DNA of 45,904 nt from Candidatus Nomurabacteria bacterium (GTDB taxonomy: Bacteria > Patescibacteriota > Minisyncoccia > Phycocordibacterales > Phycocordibacteraceae): positions 1-45,904 of the forward strand of contig CALRBA010000007.1 in NCBI GenBank assembly GCA_943353835.1. The letters run 5' to 3'. How positions within the stretch are numbered: position 1 is the stretch's first letter; the number at the start of each line of letters is the position of its first letter. A model generated the notes under the pieces. That model ran no database searches. It saw only the letters and a program-made list of their open reading frames with translations, and was not told where the DNA came from. The translations under genes and the position numbers were made by a program. Positions 1,240-9,939 of the stretch are shown piece after piece.

Positions 1240-3408
1240 TTATGGTGTTGTGGCTCCGCCAGCTGGCGGAGGCATCGGCGCTGGAGTTGGCGTTGTGCCT
1301 GAGGTAGCTGCATATTTTTTGGCAAGCTCCATTATATTTTCTACATCTTTTTGTTCCTTTGACTTTCCTGCGCTTTTCCTGATATTTTCCGCAGCTTTTG
1401 AATTTCTATACATTCCTCCCCACGGCATCTTTTCAAGCATTTCCGCATACTCAACCTGCGGAGCTTTTTTGGTGTCCGAAATGAATTTCTCCTTCCCCGC
1501 AATCTCTGTATTGTTTTCATTTACCTTTCTGTCGTGTTCTTTTTTCAGATCGTCGCGCTCTTTATTTTGTTTTTCGCGTATCTGCTGTCTATCAAGAAGT
1601 GAGTTGTTGAATGCGAGCTGTGCATCCCTAATTTTATTAGGATCTCCAGTGGCTTCAGCAGCCTTGAGATTTTTACGCTTTTGATCAATATCAGCATTAG
1701 TGGAGAGTAGATTTGGATCTGTTGAATGTTTTGTATTGAGTTCCTTCATTTCTTTATCATTTCCCGCCTTAATATCATCTCCTAATTTTTTCAATGCTTT
1801 TATTAGATCCTCCTCCGTCTTAATCTTTTTTTCGTCATCTTTCGATATTGTAAGGGTTGCGTCATAATCCTCGCGCCCCTTTATTGCATCTTTTTCCCAT
1901 TGGCGATATCCGCCCTTTTGCGCTTCTCCGGCATCAATACCAATTCCTTTCAAACCGCCAAATGCCTTGGCACCACGTATGTCAAAACTAGCTTTTGCTC
2001 CAACGCCAACAAGACCTTGGGCGGCACGCCCCAATATTGGCTTGTTTCTTGCCCACTTGCTGGATTCAATTTTTTGCGAAAGTCGTTGCATGCTCAAACC
2101 AGCTGTATTACGCATACCCCACGCGGTGGCACCAAAGGATAGTTTGCCGGCGAGGGCTGACGCGCCGGCGGCACCGACGGCGGACATTTTTTTAGAAATG
2201 ATGACGACGGCGAGTAGGAGCCCCATCGCGATAAGGAATGAGATAAGTGTCCTCGCGAACGAATCAATGTTATTAGAAAGAGTACCAGTCCAACTGATGG
2301 CGCCTAAGCCGGTAAGGAATTTGGTGTCTGTGATAACTCGGAGTGCTATATAGAGTAGGAGTAGTAGTACAGGCGCGGTGATGGTCTGCTCAAAAAGAGC
2401 TTTCCACCATTTATCCGCTGTTCCCTTAAGCTGTGGTACGGCGAGACCGGCAAAGCCGATAGGCGCGATAATTATTAAGAAAAGAAGAATAACGAAACGC
2501 GCGATAAGGATGAAGGCAAGCGCGAACAGCACGAACGCTGCCACGAGGAAGAGAATGATAGACATGAAACCGATTGTCCAGGAGTTCTCAAGTAAATCCT
2601 CTGCTCCTCCTTTAGCATTATTATTTTTTACATCTCCATAAATAGTCATTAGTCCTAAACTGGACATAATCTTGTTTGATATGCCTTCGTTGTTAATTCC
2701 GGTCAGCCTGCCTGCCGATATTTTCGTTCCTGCAGGCTGACCGCCGTTTATCTGCGTATAAAATTGCGTTGCGAATAAATTCCCTGTGTCTATCACCGCT
2801 TCTGATAAGAAGAGTGAGAAATTGAGAAAGACGGCGGCAACGAGAAGCATCGGAAGCATTTTCTTTCCATAACCCATTCGCTCGGTATTTAGAATGATAG
2901 AAATACCGATGGCGAGGAAACCGAAAATAATCACGATGTTGCCGATATCACGCATAATCTGCCAAGTTATGCCGACAGCGGATAGGTCTTTCACATAACT
3001 TCCCATAGTTACAACCGTGTAGAACACCGCATAGTCCAATGTAATAATTGCAACTCCGAGAAGCCACGCGAAGAGTTGCGCGATGTAGGCCATAATGCCG
3101 TTAAGGGTAGCTTTTGGCGTCGTTGGTGGTCCTAATTTGTCATTGTTTGTGGTTTTTTCTGCGGCTGGGTCGGCTACTGTAGTCGGGTCATAATTTGTTC
3201 CACTCCCCTGACAGACATAACCGCCAAACTCACTTGCTACGACACATGTTCCATACGAACCATCAGCGGTTGAACAAGGACTCCCTGCCACATCAGCAGC
3301 AGTCTCGTTGCAGGTCTGCGCATGCACGGCGGGCGCTGCGCCCGTCGCGCTTATGACGAGCACGAGAGTGATGAACAATGTTGAAAGAAATCGCCTCATA
3401 TTATTCAC
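1240..3408 (-). CDS. VirB6/TrbL-like polytopic membrane protein (T4SS-like) with charged coiled-coil C-terminus
   Basis: 722 aa; signal peptide, multiple TM segments (FGFLAIGISIILNTERMGYGKKMLPMLLVAAVFLNFSLFLSEAVIDTGN; FVILLFLIIIAPIGFAGLAVP), then a Lys/Glu-rich tail; resembles CPR TrbL/VirB6-type proteins. Confidence 0.75.
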   Translation of the reverse strand: MNNMRRFLSTLFITLVLVISATGAAPAVHAQTCNETAADVAGSPCSTADGSYGTCVVASEFGGYVCQGSGTNYDPTTVADPAAEKTTNNDKLGPPTTPKATLNGIMAYIAQLFAWLLGVAIITLDYAVFYTVVTMGSYVKDLSAVGITWQIMRDIGNIVIIFGFLAIGISIILNTERMGYGKKMLPMLLVAAVFLNFSLFLSEAVIDTGNLFATQFYTQINGGQPAGTKISAGRLTGINNEGISNKIMSSLGLMTIYGDVKNNNAKGGAEDLLENSWTIGFMSIILFLVAAFVLFALAFILIARFVILLFLIIIAPIGFAGLAVPQLKGTADKWWKALFEQTITAPVLLLLLYIALRVITDTKFLTGLGAISWTGTLSNNIDSFARTLISFLIAMGLLLAVVIISKKMSAVGAAGASALAGKLSFGATAWGMRNTAGLSMQRLSQKIESSKWARNKPILGRAAQGLVGVGAKASFDIRGAKAFGGLKGIGIDAGEAQKGGYRQWEKDAIKGREDYDATLTISKDDEKKIKTEEDLIKALKKLGDDIKAGNDKEMKELNTKHSTDPNLLSTNADIDQKRKNLKAAEATGDPNKIRDAQLAFNNSLLDRQQIREKQNKERDDLKKEHDRKVNENNTEIAGKEKFISDTKKAPQVEYAEMLEKMPWGGMYRNSKAAENIRKSAGKSKEQKDVENIMELAKKYAATSGTTPTPAPMPPPAGGATTP
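1254..1271. repeat. intragenic palindromic element, family B copy 2
   Basis: CTCCGCCAGCTGGCGGAG, perfect 18 bp palindrome sharing 16 bp with the copy at 863-880. Confidence 0.75.
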
Positions 3409-5206
3409 TTGCTGGCGCGGTACAGACCGAGCTCTTGAGCGCTACCGCGTTTGTAGCTATGAGCGACATCCGGTCTATGATTGACCCCCCGGCGACAGTG
3501 AGCGAGCCAGCGGGGATTGCTGTTGCCGTATTGAAGGATTCAATCTCTATTAGCACGTCACCAAAATCAGCGTCCGTAGGTGGCATAGTCTGGAGCGTCT
3601 GCAGATCAGCGAGATATACGCCACTCGACGTATCAATGCCTGAGTTCAAATTGCTTTGTATTTTTTGCACCATAGCGCGTGCGTTACTTATGGCGACTGC
3701 CGCGGCATCTGCTCTGACAAGTATTGGGGCGATTTGAGTGATAATCGCCGAACGTGCAGCGACGGCCTGTGCCGCACTCGCGCTCAAGAAGCTTGAGTTG
3801 TCCGTCTGTGTATTCGCGGCAAAAGTACAGAAGCTCGCGAGGCTCGCAACAGTCGTTGACGCTGAATTCGCCGCCGAACGAAGAGTATTCCACGATGATT
3901 CGTACCGAGCTACGCGATTCAACATATCCGGTCCAGACACTGAGAGTGTCGCCGCATTCTGATATACGGTAGACGGAGTAACGCCCAAATACCCAGGCGA
4001 CTGATACTGCAGGAGGCGAGAAGTTGGATTGGTAGCGGAGTTCTGCCCGACGCCGAATAAGCCTCCTGAGTTAGACCCGCCTAGGATGTCTGAAGCGAAC
4101 ATCACTGTACCAGCCACGGTCCCAACGTTACTTAGAATACCCCCGATACTGCCAAGAATGCCATTAACCTCCTTCGCCATCTGACCCATCTGGACCAGCT
4201 TGTCCTGCGTACCGCCGAGCACCTTATCGAGAGTCTCTTTAATCGTTGAGCCGGGAGTCTGGACCTTTCCCGGCGTGCCGTCTTTGTTGTAGCAGGCATC
4301 GCCGGGAGCTATACCCTTCGCAGATGATGCTGTTGGCGTCGCCCCTGTTACAATTCCGTCACTACTGCCGTAGCATTGGTTCGTGTCTGAACTTAAGGTC
4401 TGGCCACTCGGACATGACACACTGCTCGTGTCGACTGAGGTGTCACTCGCTCCACACCACGAGAGAAACCCCTGACCCCAGTCGAGCGCCGCCTTGCGCG
4501 CCGATTGTGCACCTTGGACAACAGAGGCGAGCTGGCTCTGCGAAGCCTGATAGAGCGTGTAGGGGTTATTCTGGGTCTGGGTCGTGAGCGCGAACCACGC
4601 GCCGACGCCTCCCTGCGACCAATTGCCAGCTAGAAACGAATTAACATTTGGTGAATACTGCGACAGGGTATTTCTATTCTGGGCGAAGAACCCTGCCGAG
4701 CTCGTATTCCAGAGATAATTAGTCCGGAGCGACGAGGTGATAGCAGAAGCGAATGGTGAATTAGAATTCTTGCCGAATTGAACAAAAAAAGCGTTCGCCT
4801 GCGTGTCTCCGACTTTCTGCATCATGCCGTTTACGTCCTGCACAAACTGCGGAGCGCCCGTGCCATTTGCCTTACCGATAATGAAATCCAGAACCTTTGC
4901 AGTCAATAATTTCATCAAATTTCCCGACATAATAAACGCGAGCGGTTGGAGCACGTAGGTGTTGATTTGTTGCGCGACGTTGGCGGCAGTATTTGTATAG
5001 GTAGATATCAAATTCAGCTCATCTTTAATTGCTGAGAACGTGCTTTCTACTGCCGTTATTATTGCATTAGGCCAACCTACAATATCCGCTACAACACTGA
5101 CAGGTATTGCATGTGCTCTCTGTGGTGCAATCAAAAAAGCCGATGGCGCGACTAGAGTGATTGTTAGAAGTATCGCCAGTGCTGAAGTGAAATGGCGTGT
5201 CTTCAT
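3401..5206 (-). CDS. secreted/exported hypothetical protein, T4SS-operon associated
   Basis: 601 aa; N-terminal signal peptide (MKTRHFTSALAILLTITLVAPSAFLIAPQRAHA); overlaps both neighbouring genes by 4-8 bp. Confidence 0.75.
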   Translation of the reverse strand: MKTRHFTSALAILLTITLVAPSAFLIAPQRAHAIPVSVVADIVGWPNAIITAVESTFSAIKDELNLISTYTNTAANVAQQINTYVLQPLAFIMSGNLMKLLTAKVLDFIIGKANGTGAPQFVQDVNGMMQKVGDTQANAFFVQFGKNSNSPFASAITSSLRTNYLWNTSSAGFFAQNRNTLSQYSPNVNSFLAGNWSQGGVGAWFALTTQTQNNPYTLYQASQSQLASVVQGAQSARKAALDWGQGFLSWCGASDTSVDTSSVSCPSGQTLSSDTNQCYGSSDGIVTGATPTASSAKGIAPGDACYNKDGTPGKVQTPGSTIKETLDKVLGGTQDKLVQMGQMAKEVNGILGSIGGILSNVGTVAGTVMFASDILGGSNSGGLFGVGQNSATNPTSRLLQYQSPGYLGVTPSTVYQNAATLSVSGPDMLNRVARYESSWNTLRSAANSASTTVASLASFCTFAANTQTDNSSFLSASAAQAVAARSAIITQIAPILVRADAAAVAISNARAMVQKIQSNLNSGIDTSSGVYLADLQTLQTMPPTDADFGDVLIEIESFNTATAIPAGSLTVAGGSIIDRMSLIATNAVALKSSVCTAPASE

Positions 5207-6246
5207 GGTTTTTTAGCAGCAGCCTGTTCGTTCGCTATATCCACAACAAGACTAACAAATGATGCTCCGGGAGTCCCGGCCTGCAAAGAAATTCCGGCTA
5301 TTCTGTATGTCTTGTTGATATTTATAAATGCATCACCCAGTTTAAATATCGCTTGTGGATATTGTTGGAGTGCGAGCATAGCCGCCAATGTGTCTTCATT
5401 AACGCGAGCGAAGTCTGAAGTAATCTGGCTTACGCGCATTATCGAGTTAACGAGTAGGAGGTGATCTGCGACAAGCTCCTGTGGAACGCTGAGTACTGAA
5501 AGGCCAGCAGCAGAGTCTCTATACGCCTTCGATAGAGAAACGATATGTGATAACGCAGTAACGTCGTTATTCTCTACTGCGCTCTTCAAGTAATTAATTA
5601 CACTTGTCGTAGCGGTGCTTGTATTTTTCATAAGCACCGCCTCGGCATGTACCGCATACAATTTAAAAGCTTCTGGGCTGGAGTTTGAAATGTTTATGTC
5701 TTTTATTGATTTAAAATCAGTAGCGGATGTTATCGCTGAAGAAAGCGAGTTTAATGCCTCGGTCGCGATATTCTGCATATCTGCCTCGGATAAATCAGCC
5801 CCGCCGTTCGTTTCTTTAACCGAGAGATAGAGCGTGAAAAAACTTTTTGCGAATGCGGCGGTGAGAGTGTCGTCCGCAGGAGGGGGTGGGAGAGAGCCGT
5901 CTTTTGGCATAAAAGATTGCGAGGATGTCGCTATTGAAATATCGGCAATTGCCTTCGGCACGATAAGACCATTGGTTACCGCCTCGCCGTCTGTCATACC
6001 TAAATTAAAGGTGTCTGTGATATTTGAAGACGTCCCATAGAGAGCCTCCTCCCAATCGGTTAGGCCGTCGCCATCAGAATCTTTAGTCGCGATGGCCTGT
6101 AGAAGCGCAGACTCGGTTGACGCCTGTGCAGAGTTCGGCGATTCAACACTGCGTGCTAGAAGAAATGCACCAACGATGAGCACAACAGACAGAGACGCCG
6201 ATACGAGAATTCGCCAGTTTTGCAGAATCTGCCTCATAATATACAA
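5203..6246 (-). CDS. membrane-anchored hypothetical protein with DxDxDG calcium-binding-like motif
   Basis: 347 aa; N-terminal TM; DSDGDGLTDWEEALYGTS resembles thrombospondin type-3/EF-hand-like repeats; 4 bp overlap with 3401-5206. Confidence 0.7.
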   Translation of the reverse strand: MYIMRQILQNWRILVSASLSVVLIVGAFLLARSVESPNSAQASTESALLQAIATKDSDGDGLTDWEEALYGTSSNITDTFNLGMTDGEAVTNGLIVPKAIADISIATSSQSFMPKDGSLPPPPADDTLTAAFAKSFFTLYLSVKETNGGADLSEADMQNIATEALNSLSSAITSATDFKSIKDINISNSSPEAFKLYAVHAEAVLMKNTSTATTSVINYLKSAVENNDVTALSHIVSLSKAYRDSAAGLSVLSVPQELVADHLLLVNSIMRVSQITSDFARVNEDTLAAMLALQQYPQAIFKLGDAFININKTYRIAGISLQAGTPGASFVSLVVDIANEQAAAKKP

Positions 6247-6360: not shown

Positions 6361-8451
6361 ATGCTTCGCAACTTCGCTATTTACTATGCGGCATTTGCGA
6401 GCGGTGCCGCTATTATGGCACTTGAGGTCATTGGTTTGGGGATTCTGGCGCCTTATTTTGGCACGGCGCTTTTAGTAAGCACTAATGTTATCGGTATTGT
6501 CTTGATAAGTTTAGCGATTGGATACCGTTTGGGTGGTATATGGGTAGACACACGTCCTCCTAAACTTTTTGAAAAAATATTGGCGGGCGAACGTGGTGTC
6601 GGCATGCTACTACTTATAAGCGCGCTCTGGATTGGTCTTGTTTTCCCTTGGCGAGGCATTATAAGCAGTACTATTGGTTGGGCGATTTCTACAAATTCGT
6701 TGGGATCTTTTTTTACAACAGCTATACTTTTTGGATTTCCTTGCATTACTTTGGGGATGGTATTGCCTTATCTTATTAAGTTCCGCATACGCGGTGTTAT
6801 GGTTTCAGGAAAGTTAAGCGGTATTCTCTATGGACTTTCTGCAATCGGAAGCATCTTCGGAACCTTTTTAATAGGATTTCTTATCCTCCCACAATTTCAG
6901 TATGGAGTGGCGCTCGCAAGCATCGTAGGAATGCTGATAGTCGGAGCGTTGCTGTTAAAAATACGCTGGCAATATAGCGTAGGCGCAGGAGCTCTTTCTC
7001 TTATCTTACTGTTTGGATTTACTCCTGTAGATTTTCTTTTTTATAAGACTCCCATTTTCTCTGACGGAAAAATTAGAAGCGATAAGACCGAATGGAAAAA
7101 GCTCGCGGATGAAACAAGCGTCTTTAGTCGTGTACAGGTGTACGAAGGAACTGAGCTCTCATCGCAAAAACCACTCCGATTTATGTCAGTAAACGGCGAG
7201 GTTCATTCGACATCCTATCTTGATAGCAACGATCTGGTGTTTAGCTATGCGCGCTATAACCGCCTCGGAGGACATTTTAACCCTGCGGCAAAAAGCGCTC
7301 TTTTAATTGGTGGCGGGGCGTATTCATATGCAAATTACTTCCTCACCGACACGCCGTTGTATGCTACTGAAAAGGTCTGGAAGCTCGATGGAAAACTGTA
7401 TCATAACAGCAAGACTATTACTCTACCTGTTTTATTTTCCTATGACCCACTAAAACTGAATGGTGGGCGCCAATTGGTTTATGAGTCACCTAGCGCGCCG
7501 GTTGGCAGGCAAATAGAGGGATTACATAATAATCTTGAAGCGGATAATCAAATACCAGGAAATCACGTTGTAGTGAGAGAAGCAGACATTTTAGACACAG
7601 GTTTTAGTGATCCTGCGGGCTATGTACACATCCATGAAACGAAAAATGATGGCACACCGGGTCGTGTAATAAGTCCTGACATACCTCTCAAGGGATATCC
7701 GCAACGCCCCCGCTCCATTATTGGAAAAAGTTCGCTTATTTCTGGAGAAAATAAAAATGTCATAGACCAGCTTAATCGTGCGACAAAAGAAGGAGAAGTA
7801 TTATTCCCGATGCTTCATCGCGATAATGGCAATGGAAAATTCGATGACTTTTTGATTGATGGTTATGAGCAACTTGAAGCACTCGATGTGGTGGAAATTG
7901 ACCAGCGTACCACTGCACTCGCGGAACAATATTTTCATTTAAATCGCCAGGACCCTCGGCTACGGATTTTCCATGAAGACGGACGAACATATATGAACCG
8001 CTCAAAAGACACGTACGATATTATTTATTTGGATGCATTTCGGAGTTTCTATGGCGTACCGTGGCAACTCACAACTATGGAAGCAACAAAAGAAATTTAT
8101 CGCATATTGAATGCCGACGGTGTTGTGGTCGCCAATGTTCCCGCGGCCTTGGATGGAGAATACAGCAAGTTTTTCCAGGCAGAGTTTAAAACATACCAGG
8201 CGGTATTTCCTGAAGTGCGCGCATATGCGGTTTTCTCTCCTGACAAAAAAACAATGGTCCAAAACATTATCCTGGTGGCGTTCAAAAATAAAGAGACAAT
8301 TCGTGAATCACCGAATGACGACCCAGAAATTAATGACCAATTGACACATCGATGGTTTGGAACGATTGATCCTAAGACTAAAATTTTGACTGATGATTTT
8401 GCTCCTACCGATTATTACACGAATACCTTTATGAATTTGCACTCGTTTTAG
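6361..8451 (+). CDS. fused polytopic membrane / spermidine-synthase-like methyltransferase-fold protein with internal insertion
   Basis: 696 aa; about 7 TM helices, then LLIGGGAYSYANYFL (motif I) and, far downstream, LDVVEIDQRTTALAEQYFHLNRQDPRLRIFHEDGRTYMNRSKDTYDIIYLDAF...P (spermidine synthase-like). Confidence 0.8.
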   Translation: MLRNFAIYYAAFASGAAIMALEVIGLGILAPYFGTALLVSTNVIGIVLISLAIGYRLGGIWVDTRPPKLFEKILAGERGVGMLLLISALWIGLVFPWRGIISSTIGWAISTNSLGSFFTTAILFGFPCITLGMVLPYLIKFRIRGVMVSGKLSGILYGLSAIGSIFGTFLIGFLILPQFQYGVALASIVGMLIVGALLLKIRWQYSVGAGALSLILLFGFTPVDFLFYKTPIFSDGKIRSDKTEWKKLADETSVFSRVQVYEGTELSSQKPLRFMSVNGEVHSTSYLDSNDLVFSYARYNRLGGHFNPAAKSALLIGGGAYSYANYFLTDTPLYATEKVWKLDGKLYHNSKTITLPVLFSYDPLKLNGGRQLVYESPSAPVGRQIEGLHNNLEADNQIPGNHVVVREADILDTGFSDPAGYVHIHETKNDGTPGRVISPDIPLKGYPQRPRSIIGKSSLISGENKNVIDQLNRATKEGEVLFPMLHRDNGNGKFDDFLIDGYEQLEALDVVEIDQRTTALAEQYFHLNRQDPRLRIFHEDGRTYMNRSKDTYDIIYLDAFRSFYGVPWQLTTMEATKEIYRILNADGVVVANVPAALDGEYSKFFQAEFKTYQAVFPEVRAYAVFSPDKKTMVQNIILVAFKNKETIRESPNDDPEINDQLTHRWFGTIDPKTKILTDDFAPTDYYTNTFMNLHSF

Positions 8452-9059
8452 GAGTGTACAATCCTCTTTATGAGAGAAGGAAAAGAGGCTGTAATACCAA
8501 ACAAAAGAATAGTTATGCCAAGACCGTAGAGAATGTGTGGGATAGTAAAAAGCGGTATAAGAATATAGCTCGTGCTAAAAACGCCAACGATACTTCCGAT
8601 GGTTGCAAGCGCATATAAATCACCATGGACCCGAGCAATCGTATCAAGGTTTCTTACAAAGACGCGAATAGAATAGGTAATAAGCGCGCTTAAGAACATC
8701 ACAGGCATAAAAAATAAAAACATGGAGCCAATGAGTGCGCCGATGCCATAAGAAGTATGAGGGACAACCATACTCAGTATGCTACGAAGTGTTGGGATGA
8801 GGATAATACATATACTTGCACTCGCCGTAATCCATAAAAATACCTCTTTTCTTTGAGTGCGGTCTGCAATCATTCCTCCTCCGTAGTACCCCACAGCGCT
8901 TCCAGCGAGTGTAACGCCAATCAGTGCGGCCCACACTGATGCAGTGGTTCCTACGTAGGGTCCTAGAATCCGAATTCCCAAAATTTCAAGGGAGAGAATC
9001 GTAAACCCAGAAATAAAAAGTAGTGTTTTTGTTACTGTAGTTTGTTCATAAGACATCAT
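8448..9059 (-). CDS. membrane protein homologous to the TM half of fused spermidine synthase-like proteins
   Basis: 203 aa; SLEILGIRILGPYVGTTASVWAALIGVTLAGSAVGYYGGGMIADR aligns with the N-terminus of the 6361-8451 product (ALEVIGLGILAPYFGTALLVSTNVIGIVLISLAIGYRLGGIWVDTR). Confidence 0.75.
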   Translation of the reverse strand: MMSYEQTTVTKTLLFISGFTILSLEILGIRILGPYVGTTASVWAALIGVTLAGSAVGYYGGGMIADRTQRKEVFLWITASASICIILIPTLRSILSMVVPHTSYGIGALIGSMFLFFMPVMFLSALITYSIRVFVRNLDTIARVHGDLYALATIGSIVGVFSTSYILIPLFTIPHILYGLGITILLFGITASFPSLIKRIVHS

Positions 9060-9135: not shown

Positions 9136-9939
9136 TTATTTGGTCCTACTCAATACAAGCCACTCTTCAAGTGACAGATCTTCTGCCCGGGCTTTTTCGG
9201 AGATATTATACCCCTTCGGGTACGACGATGCGCCGCCTGCGAGAAGTCCGGCTTCTGCTAGATTCTTTCGCACATATTTACGTTTGTGGGCGAAGCCCGC
9301 GTGGATAAGTTTGAAAAATAATTCTTCCTCAGCACGTGTCTTAAAATTATTTCGGGAGATGTCGCGGATAGTGAGCACCGCCGAATCTACATTGGGCGCT
9401 GGCCTGAAGGCTCCACGCGGGACGCTAAATTCGCGTTTTGGTGTGCCGTACGCTTTTACAGAAAGAGATAAAATACTCTCTTTTCCGTCACGCGCAATGA
9501 TTCTATCGGCGACTTCTTTTTGTACTAATAACGTCATGGAGCTCGGCTGATGCTCTGCTTCCAAAAACATTCTGAATACTTCTCCCGTGAGATAGTACGG
9601 GATATTCGCGACGAGCGCATACCCTTTAGGTAGTTTAGAGATAGTAAAAGTGCGGATATCGCTGTGAATGAGTTCGAGCCGAGCGTCGGCTATTTCTTTT
9701 GCAAAATCTGATTGCAGTTTTTCAAAAAGCTCTCCGTCGGCTTCAACAGCAACAACCCTCAAAGCCAGTTTCAAGAGTTCACGCGTGAGCATCCCAGTCC
9801 CTGGACCGACCTCGAGCACAACAGAATTTTTGTCCACACCAGACACAAGCACAATCCTCTCCGCGATGCGTGCATGCATCAAGAAGTTCTGTCCTAGTGA
9901 TTTCCTTGCCCTGAATGAAGTTGAAGGGTTAGCATGCAT
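9136..9939 (-). CDS. rsmA: 16S rRNA dimethyladenosine transferase RsmA/KsgA
   Basis: KSLGQNFLMHARIAERIV...VLEVGPGTGMLTRELL...LVANIPYYLTGEV motifs. Confidence 0.93.
   Translation of the reverse strand: MHANPSTSFRARKSLGQNFLMHARIAERIVLVSGVDKNSVVLEVGPGTGMLTRELLKLALRVVAVEADGELFEKLQSDFAKEIADARLELIHSDIRTFTISKLPKGYALVANIPYYLTGEVFRMFLEAEHQPSSMTLLVQKEVADRIIARDGKESILSLSVKAYGTPKREFSVPRGAFRPAPNVDSAVLTIRDISRNNFKTRAEEELFFKLIHAGFAHKRKYVRKNLAEAGLLAGGASSYPKGYNISEKARAEDLSLEEWLVLSRTK

Follow-up and report, generated by a model that had tools for sequence, protein, structure and literature searches.

How can a domain of an extracytoplasmic type come to lie inside a methyltransferase-like enzyme fold, and what might the resulting protein do? 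The question is raised by a gene for a 696-aa membrane protein in the window, by which we mean the whole 45,904-nt stretch of Candidatus Nomurabacteria DNA analysed here. An earlier note, made from the sequence alone, had proposed that a DUF7282-like block is inserted into a spermidine-synthase-like Rossmann fold in this protein, that such nesting is unusual, and that it may mean a non-polyamine function. The nesting is real: the protein belongs to NCBIfam NF037959 (fused MFS/spermidine synthase) as a variant that carries a single, old and conserved domain insertion. The case for a role outside the cytoplasm and unrelated to polyamines is also a good one. The source genome is referred to as G000, and the other genomes that encode a nested protein as G016, G383 and G475.

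Domain organization of the protein

The open reading frame is intact and is laid out in Table 1 together with two neighbouring genes. The protein matches NF037959 with 140 bits (curated cut-off 40 bits) in two separate stretches, and the match to Pfam PF01564 (Spermine_synth) begins only at residue 502 of the intact sequence. Strand 2, LDVVEIDQRTTAL, begins at residue 508 (position 7882), where it had been placed in the earlier note; motif I had been placed one codon too early (7297 rather than 7300). The separation of the two, estimated there at about 180 aa, is 179 aa, and un-nested relatives have a short loop at the same place, which rules out an ordinary spermidine-synthase loop.

Residues 395-495 match Pfam PF23951 (DUF7282; E 1e-8, gathering score 27) with 30.5 bits in the whole protein and 35.8 bits in the block alone. 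The recognition of a DUF7282-like insert was thus correct as far as this domain goes, and the block proved to be larger than the domain: its first ~62 aa (residues 333-394) matched no Pfam family.

Table 1. Features of the nested gene and of two adjacent genes, in window coordinates.
Feature	Positions	Strand	Basis or remark
CDS of 696 aa: 7-TM spermidine-synthase-like protein with nested DUF7282	6361..8451	+	intact ORF
Seven TM helices, residues 11-227, MFS-half-like, predicted N-in/C-out	6391..7041	+	hydropathy, K+R counts, AlphaFold helices, N-terminal part of NF037959
Spermidine-synthase-like domain, first part, residues 228-332	7042..7356	+	
Motif I LLIGGGAYSYANYFL, residues 314-328, strand 1/helix A	7300..7344	+	no acidic residue after GGG
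Nested block, outer limits residues 330-507	7348..7881	+	missing from un-nested relatives
N-terminal sub-block, residues 333-394	7357..7542	+	conserved W340, Y347, N349, P380, G382, IEG385-387
DUF7282, residues 395-497, with GYVHIHE and MLHRDNGNGxFD	7543..7851	+	PF23951; AlphaFold of block
Spermidine-synthase-like domain, second part: VVEID, HEDGR, YDIIYLDAF, LTDDFAPTD	7882..8448	+	PF01564
Half-MFS protein, 203 aa, 6 TM, convergent, homologous to the TM part of the family	8448..9059	-	NF037959 profile 5-176
ksgA, rRNA adenine dimethyltransferase (SAM user)	9136..9939	-	PF00398; neighbour in G000, G016 and G383

The block interrupts an otherwise ordinary family member

The block was deleted in silico between residue 332 and residue 506 and the profiles were rescanned. 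Without it, the NF037959 match is continuous over profile positions 2-478 of 480 and rises to 164.4 bits, and that to PF01564 runs without a break over positions 11-174 with 44.5 bits, compared with positions 39-174 and 38.2 bits in the intact protein. Because the spermidine-synthase match becomes continuous and stronger, we conclude that the block was inserted into a protein otherwise typical of the family, and the host fold is the Rossmann fold that had been proposed. The presence of DUF7282 inside the spermidine-synthase-like domain is thus confirmed. In four nested proteins, including this one, the interruption falls at family-HMM position about 310-315, a region that is continuous in about 28 others.

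The idea that the block forms a separate folded domain receives at most moderate support from structure prediction. Modelled alone with AlphaFold, it reaches a pTM of 0.65 and a mean pLDDT of 62 (70-90 in the core, low at the ends), is composed mostly of strands, and is fair in only one of five models; the full-length model, built like that of the block from four sequences, is poor (pTM 0.35). A Foldseek search with the block model returned no match at E<=0.001, and sequence comparison found no solved relative of the block. The best Foldseek matches to the poor full-length model are spermidine synthases and some MFS transporters, none at E<=0.001.

Origin and age of the insertion

The earlier note had suggested a survey of homologues for the same insertion. 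It is found in three other genomes and is missing in about 28 relatives from the same order, which align across the site without interruption. The block measures 178, 178, 178 and 174 aa in the four genomes and sits at an identical site; the four nested proteins score 30.5, 37.0, 28.8 and 37.9 bits against PF23951, all above the gathering score. The homologue in G016, which belongs to the same genus, is 75% identical to the protein in the window, and those in two genomes from other families of the order are 58 and 49% identical. Three nested loci were recovered in a scan of genome contigs, in a bacterial MAG (L081, which corresponds to G016), a Candidatus Kaiserbacteria MAG (L082) and a Candidatus Paceibacterota MAG (L083). 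In a maximum-likelihood tree computed with the block left out, the four nested proteins form one clade (support 100/100), and their nearest un-nested relative is that of G142.

The shared block and site, the single clade and the un-nested relatives indicate one old domain insertion rather than an artefact, and a single origin of the nesting is well supported. A chimeric contig, a misannotation or a recent and functionless gene-in-gene insertion has only the rarity of the arrangement to recommend it, and we give such explanations practically no weight, as block, site and length are repeated in four independent genomes at the identities listed above, the nested proteins are monophyletic, and the sequence shows signs of purifying selection. 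An assembly artefact or chimera in particular is refuted by the three independent homologues. Codon comparisons between G000 and G016 suggest purifying selection on the DUF7282 part (dN/dS about 0.085, a rough figure with a high dS), and the region 3' of the insertion evolves under strong constraint.

The spread of the insertion is patchy: of 49 genomes in the family of G383 a single one has the full block, and of 53 in that of G475 likewise a single one. The order of genes for the half-MFS protein, ksgA, a UvrD-type helicase, a LysM/M23 peptidase and a ComM-like protein is largely common to G000 and G383, which belong to different families, with ksgA displaced between them. Distribution and gene order fit inheritance with many losses, and they also fit transfer of a gene block. 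No viral relative was confirmed in scans of IMG/VR.

DUF7282 in other proteins

Stand-alone DUF7282 proteins were found in the sampled genomes of the order. An N-terminal TM helix is present in 43 of 44 of these, a second TM helix after the domain in none, and several are fused to a cupredoxin domain, in line with the extracytoplasmic character that the earlier note had ascribed to DUF7282. Proteins in which DUF7282 is followed by a plastocyanin/cupredoxin-type domain are encoded at L034, L040, L062 and L068, and one with a rhodanese domain at L058. DUF7282 is named in no paper of the literature searched.

In the DUF7282 alignment, the histidines of V-x-I-H-E and M-L-H-x-D tend to covary (H/H 29, R/Y 5, H/Y 5, Y/H 4), and the two positions may be in contact or share a ligand. 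A metal site built on the conserved histidines, including that of M-L-H-x-D, was considered and not upheld, as histidine is not kept in all members. A 24,163-aa open frame with a DUF7282 match (L128, contig G123:C7) was set aside as a product of masked stretches of N.

Membrane topology

Hydropathy predicts seven TM helices in all ten family members analysed, nested and un-nested. In the 696-aa protein, 12 lysine and arginine residues lie on even loops compared with one on odd loops (the tail after TM7 left out), and positive charge is on the even loops in each of the ten proteins. This distribution predicts that the N-terminus is inside the cell and that the large C-terminal domain is outside. 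Un-nested 7-TM members of 802-814 aa with a C-terminal peptidase M28 are encoded at L021:962-3397 (+), L102:616-3024 (-) and L107:580-3024 (-). Cupredoxin domains and many M28 domains are extracytoplasmic. From the charge bias of the 7-TM part and the nature of the partner domains (DUF7282, cupredoxin and M28), the catalytic domain is predicted to face the outside of the cell. This location is probably general to the 7-TM family and not due to the insertion; what is unusual is the nesting itself.

Cofactor pocket and the polyamine question

In spermidine synthases, the Asp or Glu that follows GGG/GGx (the GxG(D/E) motif) contacts decarboxylated SAM. The corresponding position is acidic in none of the 32 aligned family members, and is A, S or G in the four nested proteins. 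Compared with solved spermidine synthases, this acidic residue is lost and another residue stands in place of the second Asp of the DxxDP-type motif; the first Asp is kept. Largely retained across the 32 members are the acidic residue at the end of strand 2, D-(G/A)-R, YDxxxxD and a C-terminal T-D-(D/N)-type motif; residues on the ribose and adenine side of the cofactor are also kept. The cofactor-pocket motifs are equally conserved in nested and un-nested proteins. The family profile also matches METTL13 (59 bits), a spermidine-synthase-like methyltransferase.

Loss of the aminopropyltransferase signature is therefore well supported. The protein falls far below the cut-offs of the speE equivalogs (31 bits vs 249.55 for TIGR00417; 54.9 vs 260 for PRK00811), and no match to AdoMet decarboxylase (PF02675) was found in the G000 genome (0.53 Mb, 98.5% estimated completeness). 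Sequence kinship with spermidine synthases is what would favour a membrane-bound polyamine aminopropyltransferase, the reading that automatic annotation would give, with DUF7282 as an accessory. We consider this very unlikely, as the acidic residue that contacts the decarboxylated cofactor is missing in all 32 aligned members, the second active-site Asp is replaced, the speE cut-offs are missed widely, no AdoMet decarboxylase was found in the genome, and the predicted location is outside. The non-polyamine function suggested in the earlier note thus gains support from the alignment and from the gene content of the genome.

The adjacent half-MFS gene and the supply of SAM

The gene for the half-MFS protein adjoins the nested gene in all three genomes in which this could be examined (G000, G016 and G383); the G475 sequence ends just past the nested gene. 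Among 267 genomes of the order, the other listed matches to the TM half of NF037959 are in frames of ~500 aa or more, except for a single 224-aa frame close to a contig edge. Among these matches, stand-alone half-MFS genes thus occur only in nested genomes, apart from that single case. The 696-aa and 203-aa proteins are most simply read as a predicted MFS-like pair. In support of pairing, a 962-aa protein in G266 (L127:15-2903, -) has two TM halves, with a full-profile MFS_1 match, followed by a spermidine-synthase-like domain.

We did not identify a match to bacterial-type metK (TIGR01034) in the G000 genome (98.5% estimated completeness), in which ksgA is present. With no recognisable bacterial-type metK, the cells need to import SAM or to make it with an enzyme that escaped detection. 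A metK match is absent from all four nested genomes and present in three of five un-nested ones.

These observations bear on the possibility that the protein is a non-enzymatic capture or transport module, in which the outward domain would bind SAM or a nucleoside-type metabolite and feed an MFS-like pore formed by the 7-TM and 6-TM proteins; the cells would thereby import SAM that they cannot make, with DUF7282 as an anchor to the host or cell surface. The metK contrast, the half-MFS partner specific to nested genomes, the retained ribose- and adenine-side residues, and the SAM requirement of the adjacent ksgA product all agree with this. The contrast is small, however (four genomes vs five, for bacterial-type metK), and two un-nested genomes lack metK as well. 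Moreover, un-nested members occur in metK-bearing genomes, and no transporter precedent was found for the spermidine-synthase fold. We regard capture or transport as improbable, and give slightly less credence still to its most specific form, a two-part MFS-like importer that scavenges SAM or a related nucleoside with the spermidine-synthase fold as its binding domain, held at the cell or host surface by DUF7282.

On the other side of the nested gene, the window encodes a 722-aa protein (1240-3408, -) with weak TrbL/VirB6-like matches around the cut-off, adjoined by two secreted-type proteins (3401-5206 and 5203-6246). The three might make up a type IV secretion-like cluster next to the locus.

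A possible function for the nested protein

The reading that we favour, tentatively and at a little less than even confidence, is that of an outward-facing SAM-dependent methyltransferase-like enzyme with a spermidine-synthase fold, seven TM helices, a DUF7282 docking module and a half-MFS partner. Methyltransferase activity, the docking role and the substrate are only inferred. In this reading, an extracytoplasmic DUF7282, with about 62 aa ahead of it, was inserted once, long ago and in frame, into the loop between helix A and strand 2.

The cofactor of class I methyltransferase folds is bound at the C-terminal ends of strands 1 and 2, and the helix A-strand 2 loop is at the end opposite the cofactor pocket. 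An insertion in this loop should therefore leave the pocket undisturbed, in agreement with the intact motifs. This placement of DUF7282 relative to the pocket derives from the general fold rather than from a model, because the full-length AlphaFold prediction is poor. The SAM-binding elements would remain intact, with DUF7282 projecting from the back face of the enzyme, and a module in that position would serve more easily for docking or anchoring than as a lid. DUF7282 may thus dock the enzyme on its substrate or on the surface of the cell, which is our guess from position and domain type. The enzyme domain would modify a secreted or surface molecule, perhaps a protein by analogy with the fungal methyltransferase NHMT, and the TM half would pair with the adjacent solitary half-MFS protein. 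Counting against the methyltransferase reading is that it does not explain the source of SAM outside the membrane.

The same difficulty favours a catalytically dead scaffold, in which the fold would be a surface platform, anchored by seven TM helices, that displays DUF7282 for adhesion or a copper-related purpose. Such a role would also suit the recurrence of extracytoplasmic domains on the family (DUF7282, peptidase M28) and the occasional occurrence of DUF7282 beside cupredoxins. Against a dead enzyme speak the pocket motifs, which nested and un-nested proteins conserve equally well, and the strong constraint on the region after the insertion. We consider a scaffold unlikely, if less so than capture or transport, and retain the methyltransferase-like enzyme as the preferred reading.

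Significance

Seven-TM "spermidine synthases" are widespread and annotated as polyamine enzymes; the genes are poor evidence of polyamine synthesis in Patescibacteria, and caution is warranted. A domain that in this order lies almost always on the outer side of the membrane, nested in an enzyme fold, constitutes natural evidence of topology in an uncultured organism, and would place the enzyme domain outside with no need of an experiment. It also opens to testing the proposal that the family performs SAM-dependent chemistry outside the cytoplasm, as has been suggested for fungal NHMT, or else scavenges SAM. More generally, a class I methyltransferase fold can accommodate an entire extra domain in the loop that follows helix A.

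Comparison with known systems

The closest known system is NF037959 (MFS_SpdSyn), with which the protein shares the 7-TM half and the spermidine-synthase-like domain, and which it matches over its full length once the block is deleted. It differs in the 174-178-aa block nested between motif I and strand 2 and in the separate half-MFS neighbour. Stand-alone members of PF23951 have the GYVHIHE and MLHRDNGNG motifs in common with the nested version. Their usual place is behind an N-terminal TM helix rather than inside an enzyme fold, and the nested version has about 17 extra internal residues (around PGRVIS...PRS) and ~62 residues ahead of the domain.

In fungi, the ER-resident enzyme NHMT (AN4663) methylates the N-terminal histidine of secreted LPMOs; it has seven TM helices and a spermidine-synthase-like domain (Batth et al., 2023; PMC10349129). 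The missing acidic residue of GxG(D/E) was used to separate NHMT from spermidine synthases, and the 7-TM sequence of NHMT was reported only in filamentous fungi (PMC10349129). The protein in the window resembles NHMT in the order of seven TM helices and spermidine-synthase-like domain and in the loss of that acidic residue; NHMT is fungal, and no nested domain has been reported in it. The likeness may be one of analogy, not of descent.

The 7-TM SpeE homologues HVO_0255 and HVO_B0357 of Haloferax volcanii do not conserve the putrescine-binding residues (PMC5178350, PMC6267482); the organism lacks AdoMet decarboxylase, and their role was described as undetermined (PMC5178350). In common with the nested protein, they combine seven TM helices with a SpeE-like domain in an organism without AdoMet decarboxylase, whereas they are archaeal and have no described DUF7282 insertion.
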